NCBI GenBank assembly: GCA_904374385.1
Contig: CAJFGA010000011.1
Coordinates: 1-42,239 of the forward strand
Direction: 5' to 3'
Origin: an uncultured Clostridia bacterium
GTDB lineage: Bacteria; Bacillota; Clostridia; Christensenellales; Borkfalkiaceae
DNA length: 42,239 bases
Part shown: positions 14,205 through 38,250 of the stretch, piece after piece
Layout of the letters: every line of letters starts with the position of its first letter
Position numbering within the stretch: the stretch's first letter is position 1
The notes under the pieces: generated by a model
What the model saw: only the letters and a program-made list of their open reading frames with translations
Databases searched by the model: none
Told to the model about the DNA's origin: nothing
Program-made: the position numbers and the translations under genes

Positions 14205-16664
14205 CTACTCCCACCGCAAGATCCCGAACCGATAAGAAATTTCGTAAAACGAAGTAACGTCTCTTCCCCGTTCATCGTAGATCGTCACGTTCTCGATGGT
14301 GTTTTCCGCCCATTCTTGGTCGCTGTTCAGCACGCCGGTCACCTCGATCTCGATGGTATGCCCGGCTACGAGCGAACCGAAAGAAACATAGGCGCTGTTT
14401 TCGCCAGCAGAGTTGCCGTACAGAGGCTCCCCTTTGTTTTCTCCCGTGATCGATATGCTCGCGATCATGATCTGGCGCGGGCGCACTTCTAACACCGGCC
14501 AACTGTAATTTCCGTCGAGAACGAATATATTCTCGTCGTTGACGTTGGCTCCCGTAACGACGTCATAGGCGTCCATGGACATCCGCGTAAATTCACTATC
14601 GAATAGATACAACTGGCCGACTTCCGTCAAATGCGGCAAAGAAAATTCTACGCGCACATCGGGCGGTTTGACAAGAGTATAATCCTCGTCCGTAAAAGTG
14701 AGCGGTGCCCCGTCATAATATTTGCTGATGCCGTAGACGGTCAAAATGATCTTTGTTTTGACGCGCAGCTTGCCGTATTCGTAACGGATATCGTAATTGG
14801 AGGTCACATTGTTGCCGTATTCGTCCAATATGTACATTTCAAGCGCGTTGTCTACATATACCACCCGCGTATCGGTATCCGTAACGCCCGTTAGAGTGGC
14901 GGCCGACGCCGAAGAGGGCGTCACATACATGCTGTGCCCGTCGACGAGGGGATTCTCCGAATCGGCAAGCAGCCAATAGTCTTCCCTTCCCGAAAGGGAA
15001 TAAACCATCCCCTCTTCATAGATCCATGTGGCAGAATTAGTCCCCACGGCAATCGGACGGGCGGTGATGGTCAGCGTACCGGCGTACCATATCGGTTCAA
15101 AATTAAGGGTAACGTCGCGCCCGGTACTGTCGGCAATGTAAATTTGCGGCACGTTGTCATATACCCCAACATCCGTGAACACGGCATCAGAGCTCACCTG
15201 AAGCGTGTGTCCCGCGGGCAGCCCCTCCGCTTCCACTTCTCCGCCGAACAACGGCGCGCCGTCGTACACCTTCTGCGCGCTGTGCGTGCGCAGCACAATG
15301 CTAATGGGCAGGACTTCGATCGTGCCGAGATCCAGCGCGATCGTATAATTGTCCGTCACCCTATCCCCTTCTGCCCCGAGAATATATAGCTCCGGCTCGT
15401 TCAGAATGCTGCTGACATCCGTCAACGAATCGGGGAAAGAGATGTGCAATTGCTGCCCCGGAGCAATCGAACCGGAGGTGATTGAATATTCGGGCGCGGA
15501 AATCGGCGTGCCGTCATATACTTTTTGCGCACTGGCCGTTGCAATTGCAATTTCACGCAGAGAAACCTCGATGGTACCGATCTCCCACTGCAAATTATAA
15601 TTGTGCGTGACATCGCCGCCGGAAGCACTGCGAACGGCAAAGATCGGGTCGTTGGTAAGCAATCCTACATCGGTCAGCGTTGCAGGCAAAGAAATTTCCA
15701 AGCGCTCCCCTTCCGCGATCGAGCCGGAAAGGATCTGATACCCGTCCGCGGTGAGCGGCGTGCCGTCGTACACCTTTTGCGCGCTGTCGGTCGCGACCGT
15801 CACTTCTCGCGGCAAAATCGCAAGCGTGCCGATTTCCCATTCGATGTCGTAGTAGCGGGCAACATCTTCTCCGCTTTCGCTGCGGATAAAAAATTCCGGG
15901 ATGTTAGAGATCTCTCCCACATCGGTCAGCGCCGCGGTAAGGTTCAATTCCAGGGTATCGCCCTCTGCGATCGAACCGGAAAGAATCCGGTATCCGCCCG
16001 CGGTGAGCGGCGCGCCGTCGTACACCTTCTGCGCGCCGTCCACCGCAATGTGCAGCGGCCGCGCATGAAAGGCGACCTCTTTCGTTTTCAATGCGAGCGC
16101 ATAGCAGTCGGTAACGTCCTCCCCGCTGCCGTTTTTAATGGCAACGGTGCCCGCCTCGATCGTGCAGCGGCCCTCCGCTGTCACGGCAAAAGAAAAATCC
16201 ACTACATTCAGCGCATCTTGATAGGCGAGATCTGCTGCAAACGAAGGTTCCTCTCCGTAAAGATAATCTTCGGCCGAAAAAACGACTTCCGTTTCCATCG
16301 GCAGAATACTGTAAGAAAAAGTCTGCCCGTATTTCGCGTTGCCCGCGATGCCGCGGGATACGGCGCGCACCTGATATTCCCCTACACGGCGCGGCATTTC
16401 CTCCGTCCACTCATCCGCCCCCTCTTCGCGGTATTCGACAGAGACCCTGCCGAGAACGGCCTTCGCCTGAAAGGGCAGATCTTCACCGTAGACGATTGAC
16501 TGCGGGCAAGATTCCCCGTAAATACTGCCCGGCACCGTAAAGAGCACGACGAGCATGGCGATCAAAAGGAGCAAAATGCCGAGGATCAGAAAGCGGAAAT
16601 GCCACAGACGATCGAATATATCCAGCCACTTGAACAGCTTCTTTTTATATGCCTGATAGAGCAT
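14205..16664 (-). CDS. Membrane-anchored MBG-repeat protein
   Basis: An 819-residue protein with a short basic N-terminus, one membrane helix (~25-45) and a long extracytoplasmic part of beta repeats. Four clear repeats carry the motif AQKVYDGxPL at ~211, 295, 379 and 463, a regular 84-residue period, each with DVTxNYxxxxEIGTxxV later in the unit. Degenerate copies lie on both sides (YGISKYYDGAPL near 670). This is the MBG type of bacterial surface repeat. The start is supported by GGGAGGCTCAA-ATG. The stop is TAG. It follows the transglutaminase gene by 12 bases and is the last gene of the eight-gene operon. The transglutaminase C-terminus carries two related repeats, so the two proteins may be partners or assemble together outside the membrane. 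It could be a substrate of the transglutaminase; that is inference. Confidence 0.8.
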   Translation of the reverse strand: MLYQAYKKKLFKWLDIFDRLWHFRFLILGILLLLIAMLVVLFTVPGSIYGESCPQSIVYGEDLPFQAKAVLGRVSVEYREEGADEWTEEMPRRVGEYQVRAVSRGIAGNAKYGQTFSYSILPMETEVVFSAEDYLYGEEPSFAADLAYQDALNVVDFSFAVTAEGRCTIEAGTVAIKNGSGEDVTDCYALALKTKEVAFHARPLHIAVDGAQKVYDGAPLTAGGYRILSGSIAEGDTLELNLTAALTDVGEISNIPEFFIRSESGEDVARYYDIEWEIGTLAILPREVTVATDSAQKVYDGTPLTADGYQILSGSIAEGERLEISLPATLTDVGLLTNDPIFAVRSASGGDVTHNYNLQWEIGTIEVSLREIAIATASAQKVYDGTPISAPEYSITSGSIAPGQQLHISFPDSLTDVSSILNEPELYILGAEGDRVTDNYTIALDLGTIEVLPISIVLRTHSAQKVYDGAPLFGGEVEAEGLPAGHTLQVSSDAVFTDVGVYDNVPQIYIADSTGRDVTLNFEPIWYAGTLTITARPIAVGTNSATWIYEEGMVYSLSGREDYWLLADSENPLVDGHSMYVTPSSASAATLTGVTDTDTRVVYVDNALEMYILDEYGNNVTSNYDIRYEYGKLRVKTKIILTVYGISKYYDGAPLTFTDEDYTLVKPPDVRVEFSLPHLTEVGQLYLFDSEFTRMSMDAYDVVTGANVNDENIFVLDGNYSWPVLEVRPRQIMIASISITGENKGEPLYGNSAGENSAYVSFGSLVAGHTIEIEVTGVLNSDQEWAENTIENVTIYDERGRDVTSFYEISYRFGILRWE

Positions 16665-16676
16665 TTGAGCCTCCCG

Positions 16677-18971
16677 TCAAGTGACGCGCAGCGTGCCGTA
16701 GATAAGTTCGACGGCATAGCAGTCCGTAACGTCGTTGCCTTGCCGATCGTAGATGACGACGAACGATACACTGTTTTCGCTTTTACCCGGATACTGCTGC
16801 CAACCGGAGAAATAAACCTCTATTTGATGCTCGGACAACAGTCCCGTTTGGGTAAAGTCCTCGCACGTCAGTGCGCCGCCCTGCAATGATTCATAGGATG
16901 CGGTTGCCGATCCCGTCGTGATCGTAATCGCGCGGGGCCGCACTTCGAGCGTACCGAATTCTTTTGTGATGTAATACAGATACGTTACATCTTTTCCGTT
17001 CTCGTCAAAAACAGTGATGCTCGTAAAAGTATTGGTTACTTTACCGACTGTAACCAGTTCTGCAAATCCGGATGCGCTGATGCGGTGTCCCGGCAGCAGT
17101 GCACCGTCAGTCACAAAAATCGCCTCACCGCGCAGCGCCGTGCCGTCATACTCTTTGACGACAGATTCACTTTGAACGGCGATCGGCTGCGCCACGATTT
17201 CCTCGCCGTGGTCATCCCCCGCGCTTCCGGGGCCTTCGCCGCCCGGTATACCGCCCTGACCCGTCACTTCTAAGGAAACCCACCCGAAGCCGTCGAGATA
17301 GACTTCTACCCACGCATGCGCATTGGCAGCTGTAAAGCTGGCATATTCCCCTGCCCGCACATTTCCCGCAATACCGATGGTATATCGCGCGGGGATGCCC
17401 AACGTTCGGAAAAGGAGAGTCGCCGCCGATGCGTAGTGCTGGCAGATACCTTCTTTATAATCGCGCAAAAAAGAAACGACGATATCTTCCTGTTGGTCGA
17501 GCGAACGGTCATACTTTAAGTTATATGCGGCGGCATTTTGCACAAACTGCGCCACATCGGCAATAAAATTCGCATCTGTTTTATCGAATCCCTGTTCGGC
17601 TATCACCTGCCGCAAATATTCCGCCGTTGAGGAAGGAACATATAAGTAATTTTCGTAAACAAAGTTCCTGTAAACCCGTTCTGCCTGTGCAGCATTTCCC
17701 GACAACGTATAGGAGAGCATTCCGTCTTCCTGAAAATGATAGCTGTAATATGTGAGCGAATACGGGGCGGCTGTAGAACCGCTGTAAATGACGTCGCTTC
17801 CCTGTACGGCATGGTTGCCGCTTCCGAGAACGATATTGTACGGCAAATAATATTGGCTGCCGTATACGGTGATCTGCATTTCATGCTCTGTCATCCCCAT
17901 ACCGGAAAGACTGAACGCCGGCAGGTAATTCATGCTGTATTCACTGCCCGTATATTCCTGCGCCTGCCCCCAGACTGTTCCGTCATAATTGCCGAAACTT
18001 TTATAACGTAAATATACCTTTTCAGATATATCTGATTGCACGGTCATCATAATGAGCATACCGCTGTTGTTTCCGTCGGAGTCCCCCATTTCCGGCATAC
18101 CGATCATACCGTTTTCGATCAAGTTACCGCCGAATATAGTTTCATCCGAATTTCCGCCGGGATTTCCGCCGGGATACACATCCGTATTCTCTCCAGAATT
18201 TCCGCCGCCCGGATTTCCGCCGCCCGAACTACCGCTCGGCAGATCGGGCCATTCCTCAGGCCAATCGTTCGGAAGATCGGAAGGCCAATCTTCCGGCATT
18301 TCGTCCGGAAGCTGTTCGATCCAATCCTCCGGCAGATTTTCGATCCAATCTTGCGGCGTATCTCCTTCAAACCAATCTCCGGGCAGGCTTTCCGCCCAAT
18401 CTTCAAACCAGCCGGGCACAGAACCGCCTCCCATCCCCGGAAGGGAAGGAAAGTCGTCCGGCCACTCCGTCGGCCAATCCTCCGGCATTTCGTCCGGAAG
18501 CTGCTCGATCCAGTCTTCGGGGAGAAAATCTTCCCAATTTTCGGGCAGATTTTCCGTTATATCCCCGGGCAGGCTTTCCACCCAATCTTCAAACCAGCCG
18601 GGCACCGAGCTTTCGCCTGATAAATCGGGCAGATTTTCAAACCAGTCTTCCGGAAATTCGTCGGGCCAGTCGCCGGGCATTTGATCGGGCAAATTATCCA
18701 GCCAATCTTCGGGGAGGGATTCAGCCCAATCTTCCAGCATGCTGCCGGAAACACCGCCGCCACCGCCGATCTCAATGTCGTCAAGCAGCCCTTGCAGCCA
18801 ATCTTTAAACCAATCGGGCGCATCGAAAGGCAATTCTATGGTGATGCCTTCGTTCTGATACTTTTGGCGCAGATAGCGCGCGCCCATCACCGCCGAACAG
18901 ACCATAACGGTGCACATAACCAGTAAAAACAGCGTGCCCAAAATATACAGCCATTTCGACCTCTTTGTCAT
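16677..18971 (-). CDS. Membrane-anchored transglutaminase-like protein with W/P/D-rich stalk
   Basis: A 764-residue protein: N-terminal membrane helix (~8-32), an acidic low-complexity stalk (~50-250) built of PEDWxxxLPDExPEDWP-like units, a Gly/Asn linker (~250-305), a beta-rich region, then a transglutaminase-like core. Catalytic Cys510 lies in GICQHYASA and His552 in AHAWVEVYL. The third position is Glu568 in GWVSLEVT instead of Asp, as in some bacterial relatives. The C-terminus (~600-764) holds two MBG-like repeats (VVKEYDGTAL, FGTLEVRPR). It may be a protease, cross-linker or peptidoglycan-peptide enzyme; the family does all of these. The start follows AGGAGGAAAGAA. It lies 10 bases downstream of the AAA gene and 12 upstream of the MBG protein gene, all in one operon. 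This resembles MoxR-linked transglutaminases. Confidence 0.82.
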   Translation of the reverse strand: MTKRSKWLYILGTLFLLVMCTVMVCSAVMGARYLRQKYQNEGITIELPFDAPDWFKDWLQGLLDDIEIGGGGGVSGSMLEDWAESLPEDWLDNLPDQMPGDWPDEFPEDWFENLPDLSGESSVPGWFEDWVESLPGDITENLPENWEDFLPEDWIEQLPDEMPEDWPTEWPDDFPSLPGMGGGSVPGWFEDWAESLPGDWFEGDTPQDWIENLPEDWIEQLPDEMPEDWPSDLPNDWPEEWPDLPSGSSGGGNPGGGNSGENTDVYPGGNPGGNSDETIFGGNLIENGMIGMPEMGDSDGNNSGMLIMMTVQSDISEKVYLRYKSFGNYDGTVWGQAQEYTGSEYSMNYLPAFSLSGMGMTEHEMQITVYGSQYYLPYNIVLGSGNHAVQGSDVIYSGSTAAPYSLTYYSYHFQEDGMLSYTLSGNAAQAERVYRNFVYENYLYVPSSTAEYLRQVIAEQGFDKTDANFIADVAQFVQNAAAYNLKYDRSLDQQEDIVVSFLRDYKEGICQHYASAATLLFRTLGIPARYTIGIAGNVRAGEYASFTAANAHAWVEVYLDGFGWVSLEVTGQGGIPGGEGPGSAGDDHGEEIVAQPIAVQSESVVKEYDGTALRGEAIFVTDGALLPGHRISASGFAELVTVGKVTNTFTSITVFDENGKDVTYLYYITKEFGTLEVRPRAITITTGSATASYESLQGGALTCEDFTQTGLLSEHQIEVYFSGWQQYPGKSENSVSFVVIYDRQGNDVTDCYAVELIYGTLRVT
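18221..18745 (-). repeat. Imperfect tandem repeats encoding the W/P/D/E stalk
   Basis: The stalk region of the transglutaminase gene is made of repeated short units, seen on the plus strand as recurring CAATCTTC and CGTCCGGAAG blocks. A ~37-base segment near 18293 recurs almost unchanged near 18481. The protein unit is DWxExLPxxxPEDWP with some variation. Such tracts expand and contract by slippage. Confidence 0.7.
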
Positions 18972-18981
18972 TTCTTTCCTC

Positions 18982-20430
18982 CTACCCGTTCCGCGCGATG
19001 CGGTGAATATATGCGAGACAGCGCGCCATGCGGCCCTCGCCGAACAGCCCGTTCATAAAACTGCACAGAGCGTCCGCTTCGCTGCGTACATACGCCGCAT
19101 TGAGCGCTTCAAATTTACGGAATACTTTTTTACAGAGGATGTCGTCGAGGGCATCCATTTCCTCTCCGCCGCAGCTGACATAGACGGAGATGTAATTGCG
19201 GATCTGCTTCATAATACGATTGCCGAAAGTGATTTGGAACTTATCGATGAGATATTCGTCCAAAACGCGCAGACGGCGCTCGTTGCGGGTCGTAATTTCA
19301 AACCAGGCCTGTTCGCGCTCGATGAGGGAGCCGAATTCCTCCGCGGTAAAGGATACGGGCTTTTGCGCCGCTTCCTCTTCCGAGAGGACAAACTCTTCCG
19401 CCTTGCGGTCGAGTTCGAGCACCATCGCGCGATCGTATACCTTATCGGAGATGGCGAAGGTGGAATCGTCGTTGTTTGCCGTGCCGATGAACCACATGTT
19501 TTCGGGCAGTTTGATGCGCCCGTGTTTGAGCCCCTGCGGGTCATTTTCCCAAACGTCCGGAACGACGTCGAGATAGCGCGACTCGGCATCGGGGATTTCC
19601 AAGAGGGACAAAAACTCGGCAAAATAATATTCCACCCGCGCGATGTTCAGCTCGTCGAGCACGGCAATATAGATGTCCTTCCGCTTGTTTGCCTCGTACA
19701 TCTTTTCTAAAAGGAGCGTTTCATTGAATTTTTTTGTAAATTCGTTATAATATCCGAGAAGATCGGTACGTTCCTTCCACATCGGCTGTACGGGGATAAT
19801 GACGGAGGGATTGCCCAAAAATTCGCCGAAGGCATAGGCGAGCGACGTTTTGCCCGTGCCCGACATACCTTGCAGGATGATGATGTGCGACACCGCCAAA
19901 CTGGAAATAAACTCGCGGATGTCGGTCGGACTGTAAAACAGCCCCAGCCTGCCCGCCGCAAAATTGCGGAACTTTGTGCAGAGCTCCTGCAAAGAGGAGA
20001 TGCGCTCTCCCTGCCGCTTTTCGCGCGGCGCGCGCGACTCGTCCATTTCATTGAGCTGGCTGAACCGCGGTGGCGGCAGCTGTTTTTCCAGCGCTTCCTT
20101 GGCGGCGCGTTCCGCTGCCTCGCGCTCGGCGACAATGCGGAGCGCCTCTTTCCATGCGTCGCGCACGCGGCGGTATTTTTTCCGCCTGTATTTATTGACG
20201 ATCAGCAATACGACCAGCAAAAGCGGAATAATAAGCACCCAAAACACCAAAAGGATGCTGAAAATGCCGCCCGTTTTTAAAAACTCGCGCACAATGTCCA
20301 GTATATCGGAAAGCCGGTCGGTCATTTGCAGATAAATGATCGCAAAGAGCAGCATGCCGCACAGCAGCAGGAACAGCGCGACCAAAAAGATGACCAATTT
20401 ATAATGTTTTTTCGGTTTAGGTTCGTACAT
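18982..20430 (-). CDS. Membrane-anchored McrB-like AAA+ ATPase (first paralogue)
   Basis: A 482-residue protein with two N-terminal membrane helices (~11-33 and 56-78) and a basic/charged linker (~80-140). The cytoplasmic AAA+ module has Walker A GMSGTGKT (188-195), Walker B AVLDELNIARVEYYFAEFLSLLE (from ~256, Asp259-Glu260) and sensor 1 FIGTANNDDSTFAISD (~315-329). The long Walker B helix and the GTANN segment are close to the McrB/AAA_5 group, not classic MoxR. The C-terminal lid region (TFGNRIMKQIRNYISVYVSCGG) is shared with the other AAA proteins of the operon. The start follows GGAGAGAACG and overlaps the previous gene by 14 bases, suggesting translational coupling. It likely remodels or gates an envelope complex with the coiled-coil partner. 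No nuclease is visible nearby. Confidence 0.85.
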   Translation of the reverse strand: MYEPKPKKHYKLVIFLVALFLLLCGMLLFAIIYLQMTDRLSDILDIVREFLKTGGIFSILLVFWVLIIPLLLVVLLIVNKYRRKKYRRVRDAWKEALRIVAEREAAERAAKEALEKQLPPPRFSQLNEMDESRAPREKRQGERISSLQELCTKFRNFAAGRLGLFYSPTDIREFISSLAVSHIIILQGMSGTGKTSLAYAFGEFLGNPSVIIPVQPMWKERTDLLGYYNEFTKKFNETLLLEKMYEANKRKDIYIAVLDELNIARVEYYFAEFLSLLEIPDAESRYLDVVPDVWENDPQGLKHGRIKLPENMWFIGTANNDDSTFAISDKVYDRAMVLELDRKAEEFVLSEEEAAQKPVSFTAEEFGSLIEREQAWFEITTRNERRLRVLDEYLIDKFQITFGNRIMKQIRNYISVYVSCGGEEMDALDDILCKKVFRKFEALNAAYVRSEADALCSFMNGLFGEGRMARCLAYIHRIARNG

Positions 20431-22213
20431 CGTTCTCTCCGCTCTGCGCCTCTTCCTTCTCTGCTTCCGTCGCCTCTGCTACCGGTGCTGCATCCGCTTC
20501 GGGCGCGGCGTCCGTTCCGTCTGAGCCATCGGCCTTTGTCGCTGCGCCCTTACTTTTGTGCAACTTGTCGAAAAACGACCGTTTGAGTGCGGCAAAAAAA
20601 TCTTTGCGCAGCATCTTTTTTGCGCCCTTCCATTCGCTGCGCAAAAATTCGCCCAAAACTTCGTATTCGAATTCAAGCTCTTCGAACGCCTGTTCTGAGG
20701 TATAATCGTCTGCATCGGTCAAAAGGCCGTGCTCCTTGCGCAGAGCCAAAAACCTTCCTTTCAGCAGGGCGTCTTCCCGCCGCAGCGCCTCCATTTCCCG
20801 CCGCAGCATCTCGAATTCTCCGCTCTTTTCCGCGTAACGCGCGTCGCTTTCCCGCATCGCTTCGTCATTTTCGGCGATCAAACGGGCGATCTCCTCTTTC
20901 TTTTCCTTATCGGACTGCACGAGCGCGGCGGCATGTGCCACCGCCTCTTCCTCCATTTTGCGGCGCAGGGACTCTTCGCGCGCATCCCGCTCTTCCAGTT
21001 CGGCCGCGTGCGCCGCATGCAGGGAAGAGATCTCCTCGCCGAGGGCTTCCGCCTGCTCATGGAGCGCGCGGATCTCCGCCTCGCGGTCTTTGAGCGCCGC
21101 CTGCGCCACAAGGAGCTGCTCGCTGTCCTTCTCCAAAGCGCGGTTGCGCTTTTCGAGCAGCTGCATATACTCTTCGGGAGAACCGCCTCCTTCACGGATG
21201 CGCCGGCGCAAATTTTCGAGCTGTTCCCGGACGGCGCGCCTTTCCTCCTCGCGGCGGCGCGCTTCTTCCCGCTCGAACTCCGCGGCAAGCTCCCCTTCGA
21301 TGCCCATGCCGTGTTCGTAAGTGAGAAAGGAGAGCAACAGGGCGGGCTCGGTAAATTCCCGCGCGATCCTCTCCGTTTTCGGGTCGGGCGAGCGCTCTTC
21401 CTTGGTCACGGTAAAGCCTTCTTTATCGTACGCGAGAAGAAATTCGTACAGGGCGACCACTTCTTTAAAATTTTTATCCATCCGCAAGACGTTTGTCTTG
21501 GTAATGGGCGGTTTGAGCTTGTCAGCCTTGGATACCTCTACCATCAGCGGGGTGTGCAGATAATAATACACCGTGCGCTGCATGTGTTCGAGTCGCTTCA
21601 ATTGCTCTCCGATCCGGTTGTGGCTGCGCAGATACGGGTCATCTTCGCGCGATTCCCGCATGGAAAATTCGTATTGAAGGCGATGTTTTCCCTCCGTCAC
21701 TTCCTTGCGCAGCAACACTTCGCCGCGATATGTGTTCGTTTCGCGGACGATTCGGTTATAGCGCAGGGAGATGAAATCGTTCAGCCGGCACAGCATCATG
21801 TAGAGAAACCTGTTTTCATAGACGGCATAATTGTTCAGCCTCTCTACGGTGTATAGCTTTTCGGGCATGAGATCCTCCCCTTCGGGAGGTTTGCGCGAGA
21901 TCAGGTTGCTGTGCCGCGCGAGATGCTCTACCGATTCCCGCGAAACGTGCTTCACCTTTTCTATAGGCTCCACTTCGCCGCTCGAACGGATAAACTGGCG
22001 CTCTTCGTCGATCGCCTTGCCGATAAAAACCAGCCCGTGCTCGATCGCTTCCACCCAATCCTCTTCGATACGGCATTCTGTCCGTATGACGGTGATCTTG
22101 TCGCTCTCGTCCGCATGCACGATGGCGTCGCGCAGCGAAGCGCCCTCGCGGTCCTTTTGCAGGATTTTGCCGTATTCGCGAAAGGCACGGTAAAAAAGAT
22201 CCCATTGCGTCAT
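20417..22213 (-). CDS. DUF2357/McrC-like protein with long coiled coil
   Basis: A 598-residue soluble protein. Residues ~1-290 form a mixed domain whose centre, VERLNNYAVYENRFLYMMLCRLNDF (motif YENRF at 132-136), resembles the DUF2357/McrC N-terminal signature PENRF(V/L)K. Residues ~305-500 are a highly charged heptad-rich coiled coil (REEERRAVREQLENLRRR onwards). After a small helical segment comes an Ala/Glu-rich acidic tail (~555-598). I see no PD-(D/E)XK nuclease motif, so unlike McrC it should not cut DNA. It sits between the two AAA genes, as McrC pairs with McrB, and is the natural adaptor of these ATPases. The start follows AGGGGGATCGTGCG-ATG. The DUF2357 link rests on a short motif and context and needs a profile search. 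Confidence 0.6.
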   Translation of the reverse strand: MTQWDLFYRAFREYGKILQKDREGASLRDAIVHADESDKITVIRTECRIEEDWVEAIEHGLVFIGKAIDEERQFIRSSGEVEPIEKVKHVSRESVEHLARHSNLISRKPPEGEDLMPEKLYTVERLNNYAVYENRFLYMMLCRLNDFISLRYNRIVRETNTYRGEVLLRKEVTEGKHRLQYEFSMRESREDDPYLRSHNRIGEQLKRLEHMQRTVYYYLHTPLMVEVSKADKLKPPITKTNVLRMDKNFKEVVALYEFLLAYDKEGFTVTKEERSPDPKTERIAREFTEPALLLSFLTYEHGMGIEGELAAEFEREEARRREEERRAVREQLENLRRRIREGGGSPEEYMQLLEKRNRALEKDSEQLLVAQAALKDREAEIRALHEQAEALGEEISSLHAAHAAELEERDAREESLRRKMEEEAVAHAAALVQSDKEKKEEIARLIAENDEAMRESDARYAEKSGEFEMLRREMEALRREDALLKGRFLALRKEHGLLTDADDYTSEQAFEELEFEYEVLGEFLRSEWKGAKKMLRKDFFAALKRSFFDKLHKSKGAATKADGSDGTDAAPEADAAPVAEATEAEKEEAQSGENDVRT

Positions 22214-22231
22214 CGCACGATCCCCCTTTCC

Positions 22232-23506
22232 TTATACGCTTCTGGCGATCCTGCGGACGTACTCCCGGCAGCGAGGCATCTGACCCTCGCCGAAGAGAGA
22301 TTCGAAGCAGTTGCACAGTTCTTCCGCCTCGCTGCGGATATACGCGGCGTTTTGCGTTTCCAGCTTACGCAGCACTTTTTTCGCCAAAATATCGTCCAGC
22401 GCGTCGATCTCCGTTCCGCCGCAGGCGACATAGACGGGCAAGTAGGCGCGTATCTGCCGCATGATGCGGTTCCCGAAAGTGATCTGAAACTTTTCGATGA
22501 GATATTCGTCCAGCTTTTCCAACCGTTCGAGATTTTCGGAGGAAATATCCCCCTCTTTGAGGACCGCGGCGACGAGTTCGTTAAAATGGCGCGCGCTGAT
22601 CGGCACCGTCCGGCTGCCGGATGCCTGGAAAGGCTCTGACTTTCTGTCAAGATTGAGTACCATCGCGCGGTCGTATACCTTGTCGGAAATGGCAAAGGTA
22701 GAGTCGTCGTTGTTCGCCGTGCCGATGAACCACATGTTCTCCGGCAGTTTGATGCGCCCGTCTTTCAGCTCTTCGGGGTCGTTCTTCCATTTGTCGTTGA
22801 CCACTTCGAGATATCTCGATTCCGGATTGGGGATCTCCAGCAGGGAAAGAAATTCGGCAAAATAGTATTCCACGCGCGCTATATTCAGCTCGTCGAGGAT
22901 GGTAATGTACATTTCTGCCTGTCCGTTCGCCTCGTACATTTTCTGCAAAAGGAGCGTTTCGTTGAAATGCTTGGTAAACTCGTTATAGTAACCGAGAAGG
23001 TCTGTGCGCTCCTTCCACATAGGCTGTACGGGAATGATCGTGGAAGGATTTTCGATAAATTCGCCGAACGCATAGGCGAGCGACGTTTTGCCCGTACCCG
23101 ACATGCCCTGCAAAATGACGATGTGCGACACCGCAAGCCCTGCAATAAATTCGCGGATGACGGAAATATCATAATAAAGTCCCAATTTGCCCGCAGAAAA
23201 GATGCGGAATTCTTCGCACAGTTCGCTGAGCGACACATCCGCAAACACTTTCGGGGAACGCGCCTTTTTTTCCTCATCGTATTCTTTGAGCATGCCGAAT
23301 CTGGATTCCGGTTCGACCTTTTGATTTCTCTCCTCTTCCGATTCCTTCGCCTTTTTGTCGTCCTCGCGGATCTGCTCCGTCATTTTGTTAAAACGGCGCT
23401 CATTGAGCATGACCGAGACGATGACGAAAATCATGATGACAAACATCACGGCGATATAAATGATGATATAAACAGGCTGCGTCAAAGTTTCCCAAATTTT
23501 ATCCAT
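22232..23506 (-). CDS. Membrane-anchored McrB-like AAA+ ATPase (second paralogue)
   Basis: A 424-residue paralogue of the ATPase two genes downstream. It has one N-terminal membrane helix (~12-34), a charged linker (~35-90) and an AAA+ core with Walker A GMSGTGKT (134-141), Walker B TILDELNIARVEYYFAEFLS (Asp205-Glu206) and sensor 1 GTANNDDSTFAISD. The stretch from IPVQPMWKERTDLLGYYNEF through Walker B is nearly identical to the paralogue, while linkers and membrane parts differ, showing duplication followed by specialisation. The start at 23506 has AAGGGA upstream. It is 21 bases after the GH3/pseudo-AAA fusion gene and 18 before the coiled-coil gene. Two active subunits plus a dead one (next gene upstream) suggest a mixed AAA ring at the membrane, which is inference. 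Confidence 0.85.
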   Translation of the reverse strand: MDKIWETLTQPVYIIIYIAVMFVIMIFVIVSVMLNERRFNKMTEQIREDDKKAKESEEERNQKVEPESRFGMLKEYDEEKKARSPKVFADVSLSELCEEFRIFSAGKLGLYYDISVIREFIAGLAVSHIVILQGMSGTGKTSLAYAFGEFIENPSTIIPVQPMWKERTDLLGYYNEFTKHFNETLLLQKMYEANGQAEMYITILDELNIARVEYYFAEFLSLLEIPNPESRYLEVVNDKWKNDPEELKDGRIKLPENMWFIGTANNDDSTFAISDKVYDRAMVLNLDRKSEPFQASGSRTVPISARHFNELVAAVLKEGDISSENLERLEKLDEYLIEKFQITFGNRIMRQIRAYLPVYVACGGTEIDALDDILAKKVLRKLETQNAAYIRSEAEELCNCFESLFGEGQMPRCREYVRRIARSV

Positions 23507-23527
23507 CGGAGATCCCTTCGTTTTATT

Positions 23528-26500
23528 TTATTTTTGTTGGCTTTCTGTTTTCATGTGTCTGAGCAATCTTCTGCAGCAGGATATCTCTTCGCCCCCGAAG
23601 ATCTCTTCCAAGGGCGCGATCGCATCCCCTCCGCCTGCCGCGCACAGCATCCCGAAGATGCGCGGCAAAACTTCTGCTGCCACTGCGGAATCGAGCGCGG
23701 CGGAGGCGTCTCCTCCGCAGGCGAGGAAGGCCGAGATATGCATCTCCAGCTTGATCCACTGGCGGTTTCCGAAGCGGTAAGATTGCGCCTGCCCCGCCTT
23801 TTCTTCCAAGCGGTCCACCCGCTTCCAGAGCCTTTCGTCGAGAGGATATGCGTCGCGCACCCGCTTGCAAAGGTTTGCAAACTGATAATAGCCGAGCGGT
23901 TTGACGAGCGTCTTTTCCGCCGTTTCTCCGCATTCGTTCAGTTCCGGCGCGAGCACCGCCGCGATCTCGGCGATTTCGGGAGGGATCGCCGAGAGGCTTT
24001 CCCCTTCTTTTAGCTCTGCTATGATCCATAGATTGGGCGGCACGAGATGCTCCGGCTCGACTTCGGCATCGGGGAGCACCACCGGCTTTTCGGCAGGAGC
24101 CGGGGCAAACACGCGCACGGCTGACAGCTCCGTAAGCGCCTCCGCACGGATATGGCGCAGCAGCGCTACATGCATGGACGCCCTCTCTTTGCGCGATGTT
24201 TCCAGCGCCTTGTAAAGTTCCGTTTTCCCCTTTTTGCGGCGGTCATGGAAGATAAAGAGGTCTGTCTCCTCCGCGTTTTCGGCATACAGCCGATTGCCGA
24301 AATATGCAGCGAGTATCTCGCCGAATGCGTTCCACTGTTTTTCCGCCCCGCCGGGGACGATGATCAGGCGGGATGCAGCAAAGGCGGCGAGCATACTGCG
24401 CAGATCGCTTTCCGAAATAAAGATGCCCCGCTCGGAAGAAAACGTCTGCAGATCGCGGCATACGGCGGCGAACGTCTGCGAACGGTCAAAATATTTTGGT
24501 TCGTCCGCATTGCCCGCGGCCTCCGACGCCTCTCCCTTTTCCGTAGCGAACGCCTGAAGGAATACTTCCTCTGGCGTAACATATGTGCTGATCCCGCTTC
24601 CGAATCGCAGTTCCTGCCGCAGCTTTCCCTCTTGCCGAAAAATTTTATTGCGGCGCCGCTTTTCCGCGATCAAGAGGATTGCCGAAACGAGAATCAGCGC
24701 AAGGCCCGCGATAATGATCCCCAATTCGGAACCCGAGATCTGCGTAGCCGACAGGACAGACGTCGCGCCGATCATGATAAATAGCAGCGCCAAAAGCAGC
24801 AGCCCCCAACCCGCAAAGCGAAGCGGCTTGTTTTTTGCCGGGCGGCTCCCTCCAGCCGCAGTGCCCAAGCGATATTCCTTGCCGATATTGGAAAGATCGC
24901 GGAAATAATCGGCGGGCCGGGCATTCGATTTTTCACGCCGCTCGCCCTCGAAAAAGCGAACGCCGCGCAAACGGATATCGGAGACGGAAGCGCCCACGCT
25001 GATCATATAATTTCCTGCAGCGATCCCTTCTGTACGCGCGCTTGCGTCGAATGACGCCATGCGCGCGCGAGGCAACGCCACCGTCACCGTTTTTGCCTCG
25101 CCCGGCGCGAGCGGGATACGGACAAAGGCCTTCAGTTCCTTTTTCGGCGCGTCGGCGGGCATATCGATGCCGCCCACATATACCTGCGCGACCTCACAGC
25201 CGGCGCGGCTGCCGATGTTTTTGACGGTAAATTGAATTTCTTCCTCCCCTACGTTCAGCCCAGAATAGGCAAAGCGGGTGTAACTCAGGCCAAAGCCGAA
25301 CGGATAGCGCACTTTGTACCCCGCCGTATCATAGTAGCGATAGCCCACAAAGGACCCTACGCGCGTTTTTCCCGTACTTTTATCCGATTTCCACGCGCCG
25401 AGCAGGGCATCTGCATCGTCGTAATATGTGCGCGCGAGGCGGCCGGAGGGTTCCGCGCGGCCCGTGAGCACGTCTGCCAGCGCCGCCGTACAGAGCGCCC
25501 CTCCTGCCGGAGCGAGAACAGTCGCGGCGAAATATCGATCGAAAGACATGTCTGCCGGCATATCCCCCGGCAAGACGGCGATCATGCGTTTCCCCGTATG
25601 GCGGAGCGCATCGATGAGCGCCAAACGGTTTGCGGGAAGGCGAAGACAGTTTGCCCTGCCCCTTTCCCCGACAATTTCCGGATACAGAAAAACAATGAGA
25701 ATATCGGCCGATTTTGCGAGGCGCACCGCCTCTGCGATATCCTGATCCCCCTTGTCCTCCTCCCGCACATATCCGCGCGCCTGCCCGACAACGGGCACGG
25801 GCGACATGGCGGCGGCAAATCCCTCGGGTGCCTGACCGATCACGGCGACCCTCTTGCCCGCCGACAGGGGGAGCATCGCTCTGTTTTTCAGCAATACGAC
25901 CGATTCCTGCGCGAGTTGCAGGGCAATCTTTTCGGAAGACGTGTATCTCTTGGATGCGGGGAGCATGCGGTTGACGCGAAAGGCAAAATCGATGACGTGG
26001 TCGACCGCCTCGTCGACCGCCGCCGTATCGATCGCGGAGCCGTCATCCAACGCCCCTTGCAATTCTCTCTCGGTCGCGCTGCCCTCCCTGCGATAGGCGG
26101 ACATCTGCTCGAACCTGCCGACCGCCCTGTCCAGCGTCAATCCAGCGCCGCCGATGCAGGATCCGATGAGAAACGTATGAAAATCCGCACTGGGCGCCAC
26201 GCCGTCGCATACCGCAAAAACATCGCCGAACTTGCCCGATGCTATATCCTTGAACAACGCTTCGTTGGCGGACGCATAACCGCTTCCGGCCTCCGTCAGC
26301 GAGCCGACGACAACCTCTCCCGGTTCTTCCCGCGCGGCAAAGAGAAAGGGCTTGCGAAAGAGCTCATGCACGGCGCGCGCATCCTCACATTCGTCCAAAA
26401 ATTCAATGTCCGTATCCCGCAAAGCGAGGCGGGCGTAACCGCACGCCGCCCCCGCAGCATGTACCGCGCGGGCGATCGCCGCGCCGATCGTACCGTTGAG

Positions 26501-26827
26501 AAAAGCATCTTCCGACAGCCCCGGCGCATACGCGTTCGCGACGCATTTCAAATCGGGGGTGGAGAGCAGGTTGATCCCGTTGCCCCGCGCCTGTACGGAG
26601 AGATCTTCCGTCATGCAGCCGATCAGCTCTGCGTCCCAAGACCGGGCGGCGCTTTCATATGTGGGGTATCCCCCGTTCTCTTCATTGAGCGAACGGAGGG
26701 AGGCGCGCCGTACGGCAGGAACGCCCGAACGCTGCAAGCCTGCCTCGGAAAGGCTCGCAAAGTCGGTAAGGAGCGCAACTTTCTGCCGCATCGTTAAATT
26801 TTCGATGATGCTCTTATATTTTAACAT
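23528..26827 (-). CDS. Degenerate GH3 glycosidase fused through membrane helices to a pseudo-AAA domain
   Basis: A 1099-residue fusion. Residues ~1-290 match the GH3 N-terminal domain, 300-525 the C-terminal domain (SVVLLKNRAMLPLS, RYPFGFGLSYT) and 530-625 the fibronectin-III-like domain. The GH3 Lys-His-Phe substrate motif is missing where it should be (~130-138), so activity is doubtful; an Asp208 (AVCDG) occupies the nucleophile region. Membrane helices at ~674-690 and 702-722 follow. Residues ~780-1099 align along their length with the AAA paralogues: VPGGAEKQW replaces GMSGTGKT, LLRHIRAEALTEL replaces VLDELNIARVEYY, and RFGNRQWIKLEMHISAFLACGG matches the lid. Both Walker motifs are lost. 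Its ATG overlaps the stop of the upstream small membrane protein gene. Likely role: a sensor or scaffold linking a sugar-like ligand to the AAA ring. Which side of the membrane each part lies on is unresolved. Confidence 0.82.
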   Translation of the reverse strand: MLKYKSIIENLTMRQKVALLTDFASLSEAGLQRSGVPAVRRASLRSLNEENGGYPTYESAARSWDAELIGCMTEDLSVQARGNGINLLSTPDLKCVANAYAPGLSEDAFLNGTIGAAIARAVHAAGAACGYARLALRDTDIEFLDECEDARAVHELFRKPFLFAAREEPGEVVVGSLTEAGSGYASANEALFKDIASGKFGDVFAVCDGVAPSADFHTFLIGSCIGGAGLTLDRAVGRFEQMSAYRREGSATERELQGALDDGSAIDTAAVDEAVDHVIDFAFRVNRMLPASKRYTSSEKIALQLAQESVVLLKNRAMLPLSAGKRVAVIGQAPEGFAAAMSPVPVVGQARGYVREEDKGDQDIAEAVRLAKSADILIVFLYPEIVGERGRANCLRLPANRLALIDALRHTGKRMIAVLPGDMPADMSFDRYFAATVLAPAGGALCTAALADVLTGRAEPSGRLARTYYDDADALLGAWKSDKSTGKTRVGSFVGYRYYDTAGYKVRYPFGFGLSYTRFAYSGLNVGEEEIQFTVKNIGSRAGCEVAQVYVGGIDMPADAPKKELKAFVRIPLAPGEAKTVTVALPRARMASFDASARTEGIAAGNYMISVGASVSDIRLRGVRFFEGERREKSNARPADYFRDLSNIGKEYRLGTAAGGSRPAKNKPLRFAGWGLLLLALLFIMIGATSVLSATQISGSELGIIIAGLALILVSAILLIAEKRRRNKIFRQEGKLRQELRFGSGISTYVTPEEVFLQAFATEKGEASEAAGNADEPKYFDRSQTFAAVCRDLQTFSSERGIFISESDLRSMLAAFAASRLIIVPGGAEKQWNAFGEILAAYFGNRLYAENAEETDLFIFHDRRKKGKTELYKALETSRKERASMHVALLRHIRAEALTELSAVRVFAPAPAEKPVVLPDAEVEPEHLVPPNLWIIAELKEGESLSAIPPEIAEIAAVLAPELNECGETAEKTLVKPLGYYQFANLCKRVRDAYPLDERLWKRVDRLEEKAGQAQSYRFGNRQWIKLEMHISAFLACGGDASAALDSAVAAEVLPRIFGMLCAAGGGDAIAPLEEIFGGEEISCCRRLLRHMKTESQQK

Positions 26828-27414
26828 GATTCTTCTCCGAACACCTGCACATACTGCCCGGCCGCATCGCCGCCGTTCTCCGCGTTTTCTCCCCCGAAGA
26901 AGAGGACGAGCAGACTGATACCCAATGCCAAAGCGAACAGCCCGACGGCAGAGAATACGGCGAACAGTGCGTACCTCTTCGACCGATTTTCCGCCTTATA
27001 CGGGCCCGCTGCAGTCACTTTTTTCCCTTTGCGGGGAAGCGACGCCTTGCTCCGATAACCTACCTGCACCGTATCGTTCGTACAGGAATAGACGTAATGC
27101 CCCGAATATACCTCTTGGATGCTGCACTCCACAGCATTCCAACCGGAGGGGATCATTAAATCGGGCAGAGAAAATTCCGCACCGCGCGCCGCAGACAGCC
27201 CCTCTACTTCAAAACAGCGCGATTCCCCTTTTCTGCCGCCCGCGCGCCGTACCGACAGCCGGACGCCCGTTACGATGCCGTCCGTGCCGTTGTACAGGCG
27301 CAGAGCGAGGCGGTTTGCTTCGCCGCCGCGGAGGATCAAATAACGACGCGCGCTGACAAAAAAATCATCCGGCCGTTCGGCCTCCCATTTCGCGATCACT
27401 TCTGCGCTTGCCAC
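26821..27414 (-). CDS. Small membrane-anchored protein of the AAA operon
   Basis: A 197-residue protein that I do not recognise. A beta-rich domain (~18-125, ARRYLILRGGEANRLALRLYNG, then QEVYSGHYVYSCTNDTVQVGY) is followed by a basic linker and one membrane helix (~147-173), then an acidic tail ending EESC. The start is a GTG at 27414 placed right after the TAA of the upstream gene with GGAGGG at good spacing; longer readings in this frame overlap that gene and lack a ribosome site. Its 3' end overlaps the GH3 fusion start by 7 bases. The AEFSLPDLMIPSGWN segment loosely resembles AQFTRPLALPEGTD of the preceding protein, so both may share a small ligand-binding fold. That similarity is weak. 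Confidence 0.6.
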   Translation of the reverse strand: MASAEVIAKWEAERPDDFFVSARRYLILRGGEANRLALRLYNGTDGIVTGVRLSVRRAGGRKGESRCFEVEGLSAARGAEFSLPDLMIPSGWNAVECSIQEVYSGHYVYSCTNDTVQVGYRSKASLPRKGKKVTAAGPYKAENRSKRYALFAVFSAVGLFALALGISLLVLFFGGENAENGGDAAGQYVQVFGEESC

Positions 27415-27415
27415 G

Positions 27416-28348
27416 TTATTTTCCCTCCGTATGCGCGCCGGGCACAACGCCAGAACGGCGCGTCTGATGGCGTGCTGGCAGGCGCTGCAGCAGTATTGCC
27501 GCCCCGTTGCGTACACGGCACGCGGCGGCCGCAGCCAAGTATTGCAAGCGCAACCCTGTTTTATAAATTGCCGCGGCGACCGGCGCCCAACGGCTTTTCC
27601 GCAAAGCGCCCTCCTGCACGGCGGCATTGCCCAGCGCTTTCAACCGCGTATTTATATACGCATATAATTTTTTTATAAAGACGACCGCCGTCACGAGCAA
27701 AAGAGGCAGCCCAACAATACATGCCGCCGCAGCGCACAGCGCCGCCACATACTGCCCAAACGACCATACCAAGTCGGCGTGCGCGCCGCTGTCCAAACAA
27801 TAAAAAACGAATAAGAGCGTGAACGCAAACAGCGCGACCGCCGCTGCCGCCAACGCCAAAAGAAAGAGCGCAAAGCGGGCAAAAAAAGCGGCGCAGAACG
27901 TTCCTCCGCGCGCAAATTTCTTTCCATTTGCACGGGTAAAGATAACGGAAACGCAGTCTGTACCCTCCGGCAACGCGAGAGGCCGGGTGAATTGCGCCCC
28001 GCAGGAACTCTCTTCCACGCGGAAAATACCGATAATCCGCCCCTTGCTGTTATAGGCGATCACCTCGTAACGCCCGCAAAAAACCGGCTGCGCCCATTCG
28101 CCTATAAAGCGGCAGGAACGCGCACTGTTCGAGCGGCAAAGCTGATATTGCGCGATAAATTCCCGCGCAGGAAGGGACGGCTCATACAATACGGAAACGC
28201 CGCCGCGCAGATTGTACTTTCCCAGCCCCCTGTCTCGCACGGGAAACAGGGCAGACAGCATCCAAAAGAAAAGAGCCGGAAGAACGGCAACGGCAAAAAC
28301 AGCCGCCAACGCGACGCCCACAAGATACCATACAATCCAAATTATCAT
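27416..28348 (-). CDS. Multi-helix membrane protein, first gene of the AAA operon
   Basis: A 310-residue protein of unknown family. There is an N-terminal membrane helix (~3-33), a ~110-residue loop domain with six cysteines and beta character (GRYEVIAYNSKGRIIGIFRVEESS), two further helices (~155-183 and ~196-226) and a basic, Ala/Arg-rich C-terminal tail (~230-310) likely in the cytoplasm. The start is ATG at 28348 with GGGGAGGGCCG upstream. A candidate promoter lies about 100 bases upstream. The next gene starts at its stop codon, so translation is coupled. It likely forms part of the same membrane complex as the ATPases. No homologue comes to mind. Confidence 0.65.
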   Translation of the reverse strand: MIIWIVWYLVGVALAAVFAVAVLPALFFWMLSALFPVRDRGLGKYNLRGGVSVLYEPSLPAREFIAQYQLCRSNSARSCRFIGEWAQPVFCGRYEVIAYNSKGRIIGIFRVEESSCGAQFTRPLALPEGTDCVSVIFTRANGKKFARGGTFCAAFFARFALFLLALAAAAVALFAFTLLFVFYCLDSGAHADLVWSFGQYVAALCAAAACIVGLPLLLVTAVVFIKKLYAYINTRLKALGNAAVQEGALRKSRWAPVAAAIYKTGLRLQYLAAAAACRVRNGAAILLQRLPARHQTRRSGVVPGAHTEGK

Positions 28349-29325: not shown

Positions 29326-31470
29326 TTATTTTACAAGCGTAAATTCCGCCGAAAGATCGGTACTGCTGTCCAATCCGATCCATACGTCGAATTTGCCCGC
29401 TTCGGATCCATATTCCCCGGAAGCCGTATAAAAGCGCAGCATCTCCTCCGAAAGGGTAAACGCGACGTCCTCCTCCGTCCCCGCGGCAAGAAAAACGCGG
29501 CAAAATCCCTTCAGCTCTTTTACGGGACGGACAACGGAGGCAAAACGATCGCGGATATACAGCTGTACGAGCGCACTGCCCGCGCGGCTGCCCGTGTTTT
29601 TCAGGCGGGCCGATACGCGGATACTGCCTCCCGCCTCCAGCACGTCGGAGGAAAGGCGCAGTCCGCCGATATGCCAATCGGTATATCCCAACCCGTAGCC
29701 GAACGGGTATAAGGGGGCGTTGCATACATCGCGGTATGCGCTGACATACATGCTGTTTTTCAGGGTATCGGGAATGCGCGGACGGCCGGTATTAAAGGAG
29801 TTATAATAGAGCGGGCACTGCCCTACCGCACGGGGGAAGGACATGCTCAGGCGCGCCGTCGGCTCTTCCTTCCCGAGCAATAGATCCGCAACCGCGTTGC
29901 CGCCCTCCGTGCCCGGCTGCCATACATACAATATTGCATCGCAATAAGGCTCTATTTCGGTGAGCACCTGCGGTCTGCCGCCAAAAATGACCGCTACGAC
30001 GGAGTGCCCCGCCTCTTTGAGCGCCTTTACGAGCGCCGCCTGTGCCGGAGGGATGCTAATATCGGCACGGCTCGCCCCTTCGCCCGAATTATCGGACGGT
30101 TCGCCGATGCAGGCGATCACCGTATTTATGCCGCTGAGTTTTGCAAGGCCTGCCGGGATATCGCTCACACAGGTTTCCGAGATCCCCTTGCCGCAGCCGG
30201 TGGCCGAAACAAGGTTTCTGCCTAAGGCAGATTCCAATCCTTCCTTGATGCTGACCGCCTCTTCCGCTCGGCCACGGCACGCCCAATTTCCGAGAATATA
30301 TTTCTCCTCCGCAAACGGCCCCGCAAGCGCAAACTCTCGGTCCTCCGAAAGGGGCAGTACGCCTTCGTTTTTTAAAAGCACGGCTGACCTGACCGCGGCC
30401 CGACGCGCAATCGCCCTGTGTTCGGGCGAAAGGCTGACCTCTTCGGCCTTTTGGGGATCGGCCGCCCCGTAACGATTTTCAAAGAGGCCGGCCTTTTCCT
30501 TCATTTCCAGCACACGGCGGAGAGATTCATCCACCAGCTTTTGGCTCACTTTTCCCTCTTTTACAAGTTCGGGAAGATGGCGTATATATGTAGGAGACAT
30601 CATTTCCATATCCAGACCGTTGCGAATGGCGGTCTCTGCACACTCTTTTTCCGATTCAAGATAGCCGTGCACGATCATTTCCGTGACCGCGCCGTAATCG
30701 CTGATGAGCACGCCGTCGAAACCCCACTCATCGCGAAGAGTATCCACGAGCAGCTCCCTATGTCCGTTGACGGGAATGCCGTTCAAAAGGTTAAAGGACG
30801 ACATCACCAGATCCGCCCCCTCTTCCACGCAGGCGCGGTATGCCGGCAGATAATACTCCTTTAAATTTCTTACGCTTACATCCGTCGTATTATAATCCCT
30901 TCCCGCCTCGGCAGCACCGTAGGCGGCAAAGTGTTTGACGCAGCAAAGGATACCTCCCTCATGATAGCCCCGCACAAATGCTCTGCCCATCTCGCAGTTC
31001 AAAAACACATCTTCTCCCGTCGTTTCCATGACGCGCCCCCAGCGGGCATCGCGGACAAGGTCGACCATCGGCGAAAAAGTTACATGCGTACCGCCGTATT
31101 TTGCCTCCACGGCCGACATTTTTGCACATTCCTCGGCGAGAGCGGGATCAAACGAACAGCCGATCGCCAAGGGGATAGGAAAAATAGTGCGATATCCGTG
31201 CACGACGTCCTGCATAAAAATCAGGGGGATCGCATGCGGCGATGCATTCAAATATTCATCCTGTATGGCGATCGCTTCCGACGCCGTATCGAAGTTGAGA
31301 ACGGAGCCGATCCCCGCAGCGTCCTCGCGGCAGATCTCGATCCCCTGCTGGGCGCCGGTCACCTCCGCCGCGATCTCCGCATGGATCACCACTGCGTTGA
31401 CCTGCGTAAGCTGCCGGGCTTTCTCCTCCAATGTCATCTTTTCAATCAATTTTTCCACTCTTTCGCTCAT
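29326..31470 (-). CDS. GH3 beta-glucosidase-type glycoside hydrolase
   Basis: A 714-residue canonical GH3 enzyme releasing terminal beta-linked sugars. The N-terminal TIM-barrel-like domain (1-~330) carries FMQDVVHGYRTIFP, DARWGRVMETTGED, the substrate motif KHFA (179-182) and the nucleophile Asp258 in GVLISDYGA. The alpha/beta sandwich domain (~360-580) includes AVLLKNEGVLPL, and the C-terminal fibronectin-like domain starts near PFGYGLGY. There is no signal peptide, so it is cytoplasmic and would act on imported oligosaccharides. The start follows AGGAG. It has its own promoter (31512-31540). It is intact and shows what the degenerate GH3 module of the nearby fusion (23528-26827) has lost. 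The exact sugar specificity cannot be read from the sequence. Confidence 0.92.
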   Translation of the reverse strand: MSERVEKLIEKMTLEEKARQLTQVNAVVIHAEIAAEVTGAQQGIEICREDAAGIGSVLNFDTASEAIAIQDEYLNASPHAIPLIFMQDVVHGYRTIFPIPLAIGCSFDPALAEECAKMSAVEAKYGGTHVTFSPMVDLVRDARWGRVMETTGEDVFLNCEMGRAFVRGYHEGGILCCVKHFAAYGAAEAGRDYNTTDVSVRNLKEYYLPAYRACVEEGADLVMSSFNLLNGIPVNGHRELLVDTLRDEWGFDGVLISDYGAVTEMIVHGYLESEKECAETAIRNGLDMEMMSPTYIRHLPELVKEGKVSQKLVDESLRRVLEMKEKAGLFENRYGAADPQKAEEVSLSPEHRAIARRAAVRSAVLLKNEGVLPLSEDREFALAGPFAEEKYILGNWACRGRAEEAVSIKEGLESALGRNLVSATGCGKGISETCVSDIPAGLAKLSGINTVIACIGEPSDNSGEGASRADISIPPAQAALVKALKEAGHSVVAVIFGGRPQVLTEIEPYCDAILYVWQPGTEGGNAVADLLLGKEEPTARLSMSFPRAVGQCPLYYNSFNTGRPRIPDTLKNSMYVSAYRDVCNAPLYPFGYGLGYTDWHIGGLRLSSDVLEAGGSIRVSARLKNTGSRAGSALVQLYIRDRFASVVRPVKELKGFCRVFLAAGTEEDVAFTLSEEMLRFYTASGEYGSEAGKFDVWIGLDSSTDLSAEFTLVK

Positions 31471-36374: not shown

Positions 36375-36420
36375 GCTGTCAAATCCAAAAACAAAAAATT
36401 ATAAGGAGATCACTGTTTTT

Positions 36421-37683: not shown

Positions 37684-37704
37684 ATTTATAAGAGGTGAAC
37701 GAAA

Positions 37705-38199
37705 ATGCAAGTACGCGGAACAGTTTTCAGATATAAGAGCGACGTAGATACGGACGTCATTATCCCGGCGCGGTACCTCAATACCACGTCTGAGGCGGAG
37801 CTCGCCTCTCACTGTATGGAGGATATCGACAAAGACTTCGTCAAAAAGGTGAAAAAGGGCGACATCATCGTCGCGGAAGACAACTTCGGCTGCGGCTCCT
37901 CGCGCGAGCACGCGCCCATCGCGATCAAGGCGAGCGGCATCTCCCTCGTCATCGCCAATTCCTTTGCGCGCATCTTCTACCGCAACTCTATCAACATCGG
38001 GCTGCCCATTTTGGAATGCCCCGAAGCGGTGAAAAACATCAAGGCGGGCGACGTCGTGTCCTGCGACCTTTCCAAAGGCGAGATCGTCAACGAAACGACG
38101 GGACAGAAATTTCAGGCAGAGCCCTTCCCCGAATTTATCCAGAACATCATCGACAAGGGCGGGCTGATCGCCTCTATCAAGGCAGAACAAGCAAAATAA
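37705..38199 (+). CDS. leuD: 3-isopropylmalate dehydratase small subunit
   Basis: The swivel subunit of the LeuCD enzyme, 164 residues. It has the family opening [27 protein letters not shown] and the substrate-recognition loop [18 protein letters not shown], then [18 protein letters not shown]. Its length is standard for the short HACN-type small subunits. AGAGGTGAACGAAA precedes the ATG. It is co-transcribed with leuC; a small membrane protein gene follows after 51 bases. Confidence 0.95.
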
Positions 38200-38250
38200 A
38201 GCTGCCGCCCGCAGCCTGCTGCCGAGACGGCTTGTGCCCATGGAGGACAT

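Follow-up and report, generated by a model that had tools for sequence, protein, structure and literature searches.

McrBC-type machines are best known from restriction. Besides E. coli McrB/McrC itself, the described systems resembling our locus are the CoCoPALM systems, named in eLife 2024 (PMC11090510), and the CoCoNuTs. CoCoPALM combines an NxD-type McrB-like NTPase carrying TM helices with a DUF2357 coiled-coil protein and is linked to surface structures rather than to nucleases (PMC11090510). The locus analysed here, within a window of 42,239 nucleotides from an uncultured Clostridia bacterium of the Borkfalkiaceae, shares these features, with the surface link being one of gene neighbourhood. 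It differs from CoCoPALM in usually having two active AAA genes and an extra pseudo-AAA domain fused to an apparently dead GH3 module. AAA1 and AAA2 have TM helices, which may or may not correspond to the FtsB-like TM/coiled-coil domain of the CoCoPALM GTPase, and Pfam recognised none of the pilus-assembly or signal-peptidase genes typical of CoCoPALM in the window operon. A set that fits the description of CoCoPALM (PMC11090510) was found on another contig of the same genome (C20; L137, 10000-29427), where a further McrB-like gene with TM helices (41% identical) and a DUF2357/zinc-ribbon gene adjoin T2SSE, T2SSF and A24 prepilin peptidase genes.

The likeness to CoCoNuT lies in the active AAA proteins, which are 39-42% identical to three plasmid proteins (the plasmid relatives being from Deinococcus, Rhodoferax and Pseudanabaena), in the NxD motif and in the DUF2357 partner. 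On the plasmids the genes run AAA-domain protein, hypothetical, AAA, DUF2357, an order like that of the helicase-associated CoCoNuTs (PMC11090510). In contrast to CoCoNuTs, the window system is membrane anchored, with neither nuclease nor helicase recognised; the Pfam scan of the operon proteins found no nuclease family, McrC-borne or HEPN/other, although a diverged one is possible. With E. coli McrB/McrC the system shares the DUF2357 domain of McrC and an AAA2 profile that matches McrB as the only solved structures at E <= 0.01 (3/3), and it differs in its membrane anchors and in having no recognised DNA-binding domain or PD-(D/E)xK nuclease. In both AAA1 and AAA2 the P-loop is intact, and their NNDD motif can be aligned without gaps to NHDE/NQDE of the plasmid relatives and NKDD of the C20 protein, which together with the DUF2357 coiled-coil partner places them in the NxD branch of McrB GTPases, with some room left for NxxD, as NNDD is also gapless with NTAD of E. 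coli McrB. The NxD motif is missing from the fusion itself. We take the fusion to be a putative accessory subunit of a membrane machine of the NxD McrB/McrC-like type, a relative of CoCoNuT/CoCoPALM in which no nuclease was recognised.

The earlier note on this DNA had described the ORF at 23528-26827 as a GH3 fold joined by two membrane helices to an AAA-related domain, and each of these elements was recovered (Table 1). The frame is open on the minus strand over 1099 aa, with 7 stops in the plus-strand reading. In the Pfam scan, GH3_C (residues 310-516, 6.6e-28) and an Fn3-like domain (residues 545-614, 1.4e-14) were found in the fusion protein, and neither GH3_N nor AAA was matched. A family profile aligned residues 5-623 to the beta-glucosidase 7ms2 (6-670 of 755) at 6.9e-130, and the AlphaFold2 model, built on an alignment of 54 sequences (pLDDT 88.1, pTM 0.70), has a beta-glucosidase as its top Foldseek match (E 6.8e-39). 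The likeness to GH3 beta-glucosidases of the 7ms2/8j9f type thus extends over the full fold, Fn3-like domain included, whereas the fusion has lost most catalytic and subsite residues and is joined to a membrane AAA part. The C-terminus matches both window AAA paralogues in the own-genome search (5.8e-17 and 2.5e-13) and aligns to these paralogues by hhalign with a probability of 99.9 (E 3.7e-33, 331 columns). By hhalign and AF2 secondary structure it has the homologous alpha/beta plus lid fold, which is unconfirmed by Foldseek, the 50 matches listed being glycosidases.

Table 1. Features of the fusion gene and of the neighbouring operon genes (window positions).
Feature	Coordinates	Strand	Evidence
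Fusion gene (FUS), 1099 aa: pseudo-GH3 + TM hairpin + pseudo-McrB AAA+	23528..26827	minus	ORF, Pfam, profile-profile comparison, AF2 model
GH3-like module (residues 5-623) with loss of most catalytic and subsite residues	24959..26815	minus	profile, Foldseek, alignment
Asp208, GH3 nucleophile position	26204..26206	minus	alignment
Two transmembrane segments, residues 667-724	24656..24829	minus	hydropathy
Pseudo-AAA+ domain, residues 780-1099	23531..24490	minus	profile-profile comparison, AF2 model
Former Walker A position (PGGAEKQW), residue 825	24332..24355	minus	alignment
Former Walker B position (LLRHI), residue 889	24149..24163	minus	alignment
Former sensor-1 region (NLWIIAELKEGESLSAI)	23984..24034	minus	alignment
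Conserved helical lid, residues 998-1038	23714..23836	minus	54-sequence alignment
MEM310: membrane protein, usually first gene of the set	27416..28348	minus	hydropathy
MEM268: N-terminal domain, then one TM helix; start codon uncertain	26821..27627	minus	hydropathy, relatives
AAA2: McrB-type NTPase, intact motifs, one N-terminal TM helix	22232..23506	minus	Pfam, alignment, hydropathy
DUF2357 (McrC-like) protein, long coiled coil	20417..22213	minus	Pfam, model
AAA1: second McrB-type NTPase, intact motifs, two N-terminal TM helices	18982..20430	minus	Pfam, alignment, hydropathy
Transglutaminase-core protein, N-terminal TM anchor	16677..18971	minus	Pfam, hydropathy
YDG/MBG repeat surface protein, N-terminal TM anchor	14205..16664	minus	Pfam, hydropathy

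The motif positions read from the letters (PGGAEKQW at 825, LLRHI at 889, NLWII at 932, FGNRQW at 1019) proved correct, and the losses first seen in the window protein, namely both Walker motifs and the Lys-His-Phe motif, turned out to be general. Residues were counted in 41 fusion proteins, i.e. the window and 40 family loci, against 55 active paralogues. Neither the Walker A Lys nor the Walker B Asp-Glu pair occurs in any fusion (0/41 each vs 55/55 each), the sensor Asn is kept in 1/41 (vs 55/55), and the arginine R280, guessed from its position to be an arginine finger or trans Arg, in 0/41 (vs 55/55). The lid Asn, on the other side, is found in 41/41 fusions and 55/55 active paralogues, and E998, W1001, D1005, N1021 and E1028 are invariant across the 54-sequence alignment, six GH3-less forms included. 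By homology, the C-terminus is AAA+ of the McrB type; the Walker A/B, sensor 1 and trans Arg residues of this class are not retained. For the GH3 part, we take Asp to be the nucleophile, Glu the acid/base, and Lys-His together with Arg the subsite. The Lys-His of the KHF motif is found in 0/41 fusions, the Arg is deleted in 41/41 and the acid/base Glu is kept in 3/41, whereas two different stand-alone GH3 proteins encoded in the same genome each have all four elements. The Glu-Asp of the SED motif is kept in all 41 fusions, and conservation within the GH3 part is highest in segments of its C-terminal domain, not of the barrel. The nucleophile column holds Asp in 9/41, Glu in 17/41 and another residue (Gly, Lys, Arg and Thr among them) or a gap in 15/41. 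The window fusion keeps the Asp (Asp208), which counts against a simple dead-enzyme reading, and as the position is acidic in 26/41, a residual function of the GH3 pocket may persist. In sum, the fusion belongs to GH3 by fold and not by its catalytic and subsite residues, and both of its enzyme parts look dead. A stand-alone GH3 gene with catalytic motifs lies at 29326-31470 of the window, near the recurring operon but outside it.

Hydropathy (Kyte-Doolittle, with TM helices counted in the linker region) locates hydrophobic segments at residues 667-698 and 695-724 of the window fusion. Two linker helices are predicted in 29/41 fusions, four in 12/41 and an odd number in 0/41, and hydropathy gave no N-terminal hydrophobic segment in any of them (0/41). 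Since the helix number is even and an N-terminal segment was not seen, the GH3 module and the AAA domain would face the same compartment, presumably the cytosol, where the active paralogues need NTP. On the even count of predicted linker helices we reject an extracellular sugar receptor. Besides, two loci (L118, 353-3490; L127, 2936-6145) keep GH3 and pseudo-AAA with no linker segment above 1.5.

The search of 301 family genomes returned many matches spanning both halves of the fusion. Stretches were fetched from 40 of the matching genomes, chosen because they matched, and the architecture is present in 40/40; together with the window, at least 41 of the 301 family genomes therefore carry it. 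This identical architecture rules out a local oddity or a joining error, for which the earlier note had allowed. At the order level, 15/396 genomes (families f1, f3, f19 and f32; frames of 1052-1395 aa) matched at E <= 1e-75, a cut-off that also loses diverged members, and the matches read more closely are f1 members. The class sample added a fusion in G760 (frame 1107 aa), the examined part of which matches both halves, the remaining matches having frames mostly of AAA-gene length, and the one match in the phylum sample (1/398) is the window's own genome. Among the matches listed in a literature search covering few subscription journals, no title or abstract describes the fusion architecture.

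The operon in which the fusion recurs usually has the order MEM310, MEM268 or an LRR version of it, fusion, AAA, DUF2357 coiled-coil protein, AAA, transglutaminase and surface repeats, and in the window (14205-28348) neighbouring genes overlap or lie within ~20 bases. At least one AAA gene follows the fusion in 28/28 family loci where the contig continues (12/40 end at contig ends). The order fusion-AAA-DUF2357-AAA occurs in 24/40 and, on contigs that continue, leads on to genes for a transglutaminase or surface repeats. Deviations with one AAA gene are fusion-AAA-transglutaminase with no DUF2357 (2/40; L052, L057) and fusion-DUF2357-AAA (2/40; L053, L054), and in the named loci L107 and L109 the set is likewise reduced to fusion, one AAA and transglutaminase, DUF2357 being absent. 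MEM310 was recognised together with MEM268 (or the LRR version of the latter) in 33/40 family loci, and it went unrecognised in L065 and L066. A fixed eight-gene operon is ruled out by several loci that are without an AAA gene, DUF2357 or both upstream genes. In large MEM268 relatives, BspA-type LRRs follow after a single TM helix (3/3 scanned in family loci), and as a candidate outside sensor this MEM268-type LRR protein ranks above the GH3 part. These large forms of 1341-1792 aa lie at L039:925-6303, L042:7497-11522 and L036:6175-11499, while the window form is short.

The DUF2357 protein is recognised by Pfam (8e-08) and has a helix at 346-494 in its model; no nuclease domain was recognised in the window protein. 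As the model has no PDB match at E <= 0.001, its relation to McrC is drawn from Pfam together with a single weak BLAST match, to a plasmid DUF2357 protein (2e-09). DUF2357 proteins measure 566-825 aa beside a GH3 fusion (L081, cut at a contig end, excluded) vs 485-557 aa in seven loci without a pseudo-AAA, a comparison (window, L067-L136) that is confounded by ancestry and start-codon choice. Elsewhere in the window, the ORFs 1102-5016 (1304 aa) and 36379-38250 (623 aa) have no Pfam match at E <= 0.1.

The evolution of the fusion was followed in 70 loci from named genome records, found with AAA2 as query and the best 80 matches kept. Of these, 49/70 carry the GH3 fusion (47 at full length, 2 cut), 6/70 a membrane pseudo-AAA without GH3 at the same position (L105, L106, L111, L125, L130, L133) and 8/70 the core without pseudo-AAA (L083, L087, L088, L089, L093, L101, L103, L112), whose immediate upstream neighbour is in its place a membrane protein of ~270-330 aa; seven were left unjudged (six contig-end cuts, and L131, which is without the first AAA too). 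In the alignment, Walker A is intact in AAA1 of the fusion-less loci (6/6). All pseudo-AAA sequences form one clade (56/56, support 1.0), with L068 and L072, both named Candidatus Gallimonas, near the window protein; judged from these two, the source of the window is a Clostridia MAG close to that candidate genus. Most GH3 forms nest within this clade and L136 falls outside with weak support, so that GH3 may have been gained or lost once or several times. The fusion is under purifying selection: dN/dS (NG86) is 0.15-0.29 in the 4/6 close pairs with dS <1.2, dS being saturated in the other two, and in three of those pairs with AAA genes it is ~1.5 to 4 times the AAA1/AAA2 values. These dN/dS values and the long intact ORFs rule out a degenerating pseudogene.

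With two enzyme folds maintained and most of their catalytic residues gone, several readings of the fusion have to be weighed. The earlier note had interpreted it as a GH3 pseudo-enzyme joined via membrane helices to a pseudo-ATPase, which holds, and had added a sugar-binding sensor, for which we see no support. In such a sensor, GH3 would bind a cytosolic saccharide and signal via the membrane hairpin and the pseudo-AAA to the active NTPases, and the whole fold kept under selection, the mostly acidic nucleophile position and the invariant SED Glu-Asp fit this picture. However, sugar sensing is unsupported because little of the canonical GH3 subsite survives deletion or replacement and, since conservation also peaks outside the barrel, we regard this role as distinctly unlikely. 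A GH3 part that is still enzymatic, with an unusual mechanism or substrate, could likewise draw on the conserved fold and on the nucleophile Asp of the window protein and of 9/41 overall, but a rarely kept acid/base, a subsite without Lys-His and Arg, and Gly, Lys, Arg or Thr at the nucleophile column of other members make it very improbable.

The genes around the fusion bear on a further possibility, anti-phage defence. The system would then be a McrBC/CoCoNuT-like one located in the membrane, with the fusion serving as its sensor or scaffold and an effector aimed at membrane or wall. Both active AAA proteins match the PADLOC candidate PDC-M26A (3.2e-47 and 1.9e-53), the NxD motif recurs in their plasmid relatives, whose genes are arranged in a CoCoNuT-like order, and AAA2-type matches, other subfamilies counted, occur in only 104/301 family genomes. 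Of PDC-M26 the A gene model alone was matched, by 2/7 proteins scanned; the literature searched held no paper on PDC-M26. As the fusion and DUF2357 proteins had no PADLOC match, the Pfam scan gave no nuclease or HEPN family and the operon instead supplies a transglutaminase and surface-repeat proteins as partners, we consider defence unlikely, if less so than the two readings above, and keep it as a live alternative.

The explanation we favour, with moderate confidence, is a membrane-anchored non-catalytic adaptor of a machine that serves the cell surface. Its C-terminal half, from which the nucleotide site and the arginine shared by the active paralogues have disappeared, would stem from an ancient duplication of a McrB-type AAA+ NTPase. 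The pseudo-AAA may act as a ring subunit, with the kept helical lid docking the fusion onto the co-encoded active membrane AAA+ paralogues, and the N-terminal half, a putatively dead cytosolic beta-glucosidase-like module, could offer a docking or regulatory platform. Judging by gene neighbourhood, the machine as a whole probably governs how the transglutaminase and the repeat surface proteins of the operon are displayed or remodelled. Since DUF2357 can be absent, its protein would be at most an optional partner and the docking proposal builds on the AAA genes; its absence from L052, L057, L107 and L109 disfavours a fixed four-part complex. The pseudo-AAA is not essential to the core either, since in eight loci with AAA/DUF2357 no pseudo-AAA was found. 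A bolder version of the adaptor would have the dead protomer, devoid of cis and trans catalytic residues, fix the seam of the ring, and a metabolite read by the retired cytosolic glycosidase gate the motor, coupling carbohydrate state to transglutaminase-linked surface-fibre assembly; this is a long shot.

Based on our data, catalysis appears to be lost from two unrelated enzymes that these gut Clostridia nevertheless retain as one protein under purifying selection, both folds being apparently reused as non-catalytic parts. The findings extend McrBC-type machines to membrane systems with cell-surface partners in which no nuclease was recognised. In this context, the recurring operon pairs a dead fusion with live copies of one of its enzymes, the AAA NTPase, which makes the role of a dead subunit in AAA+ machines directly testable.
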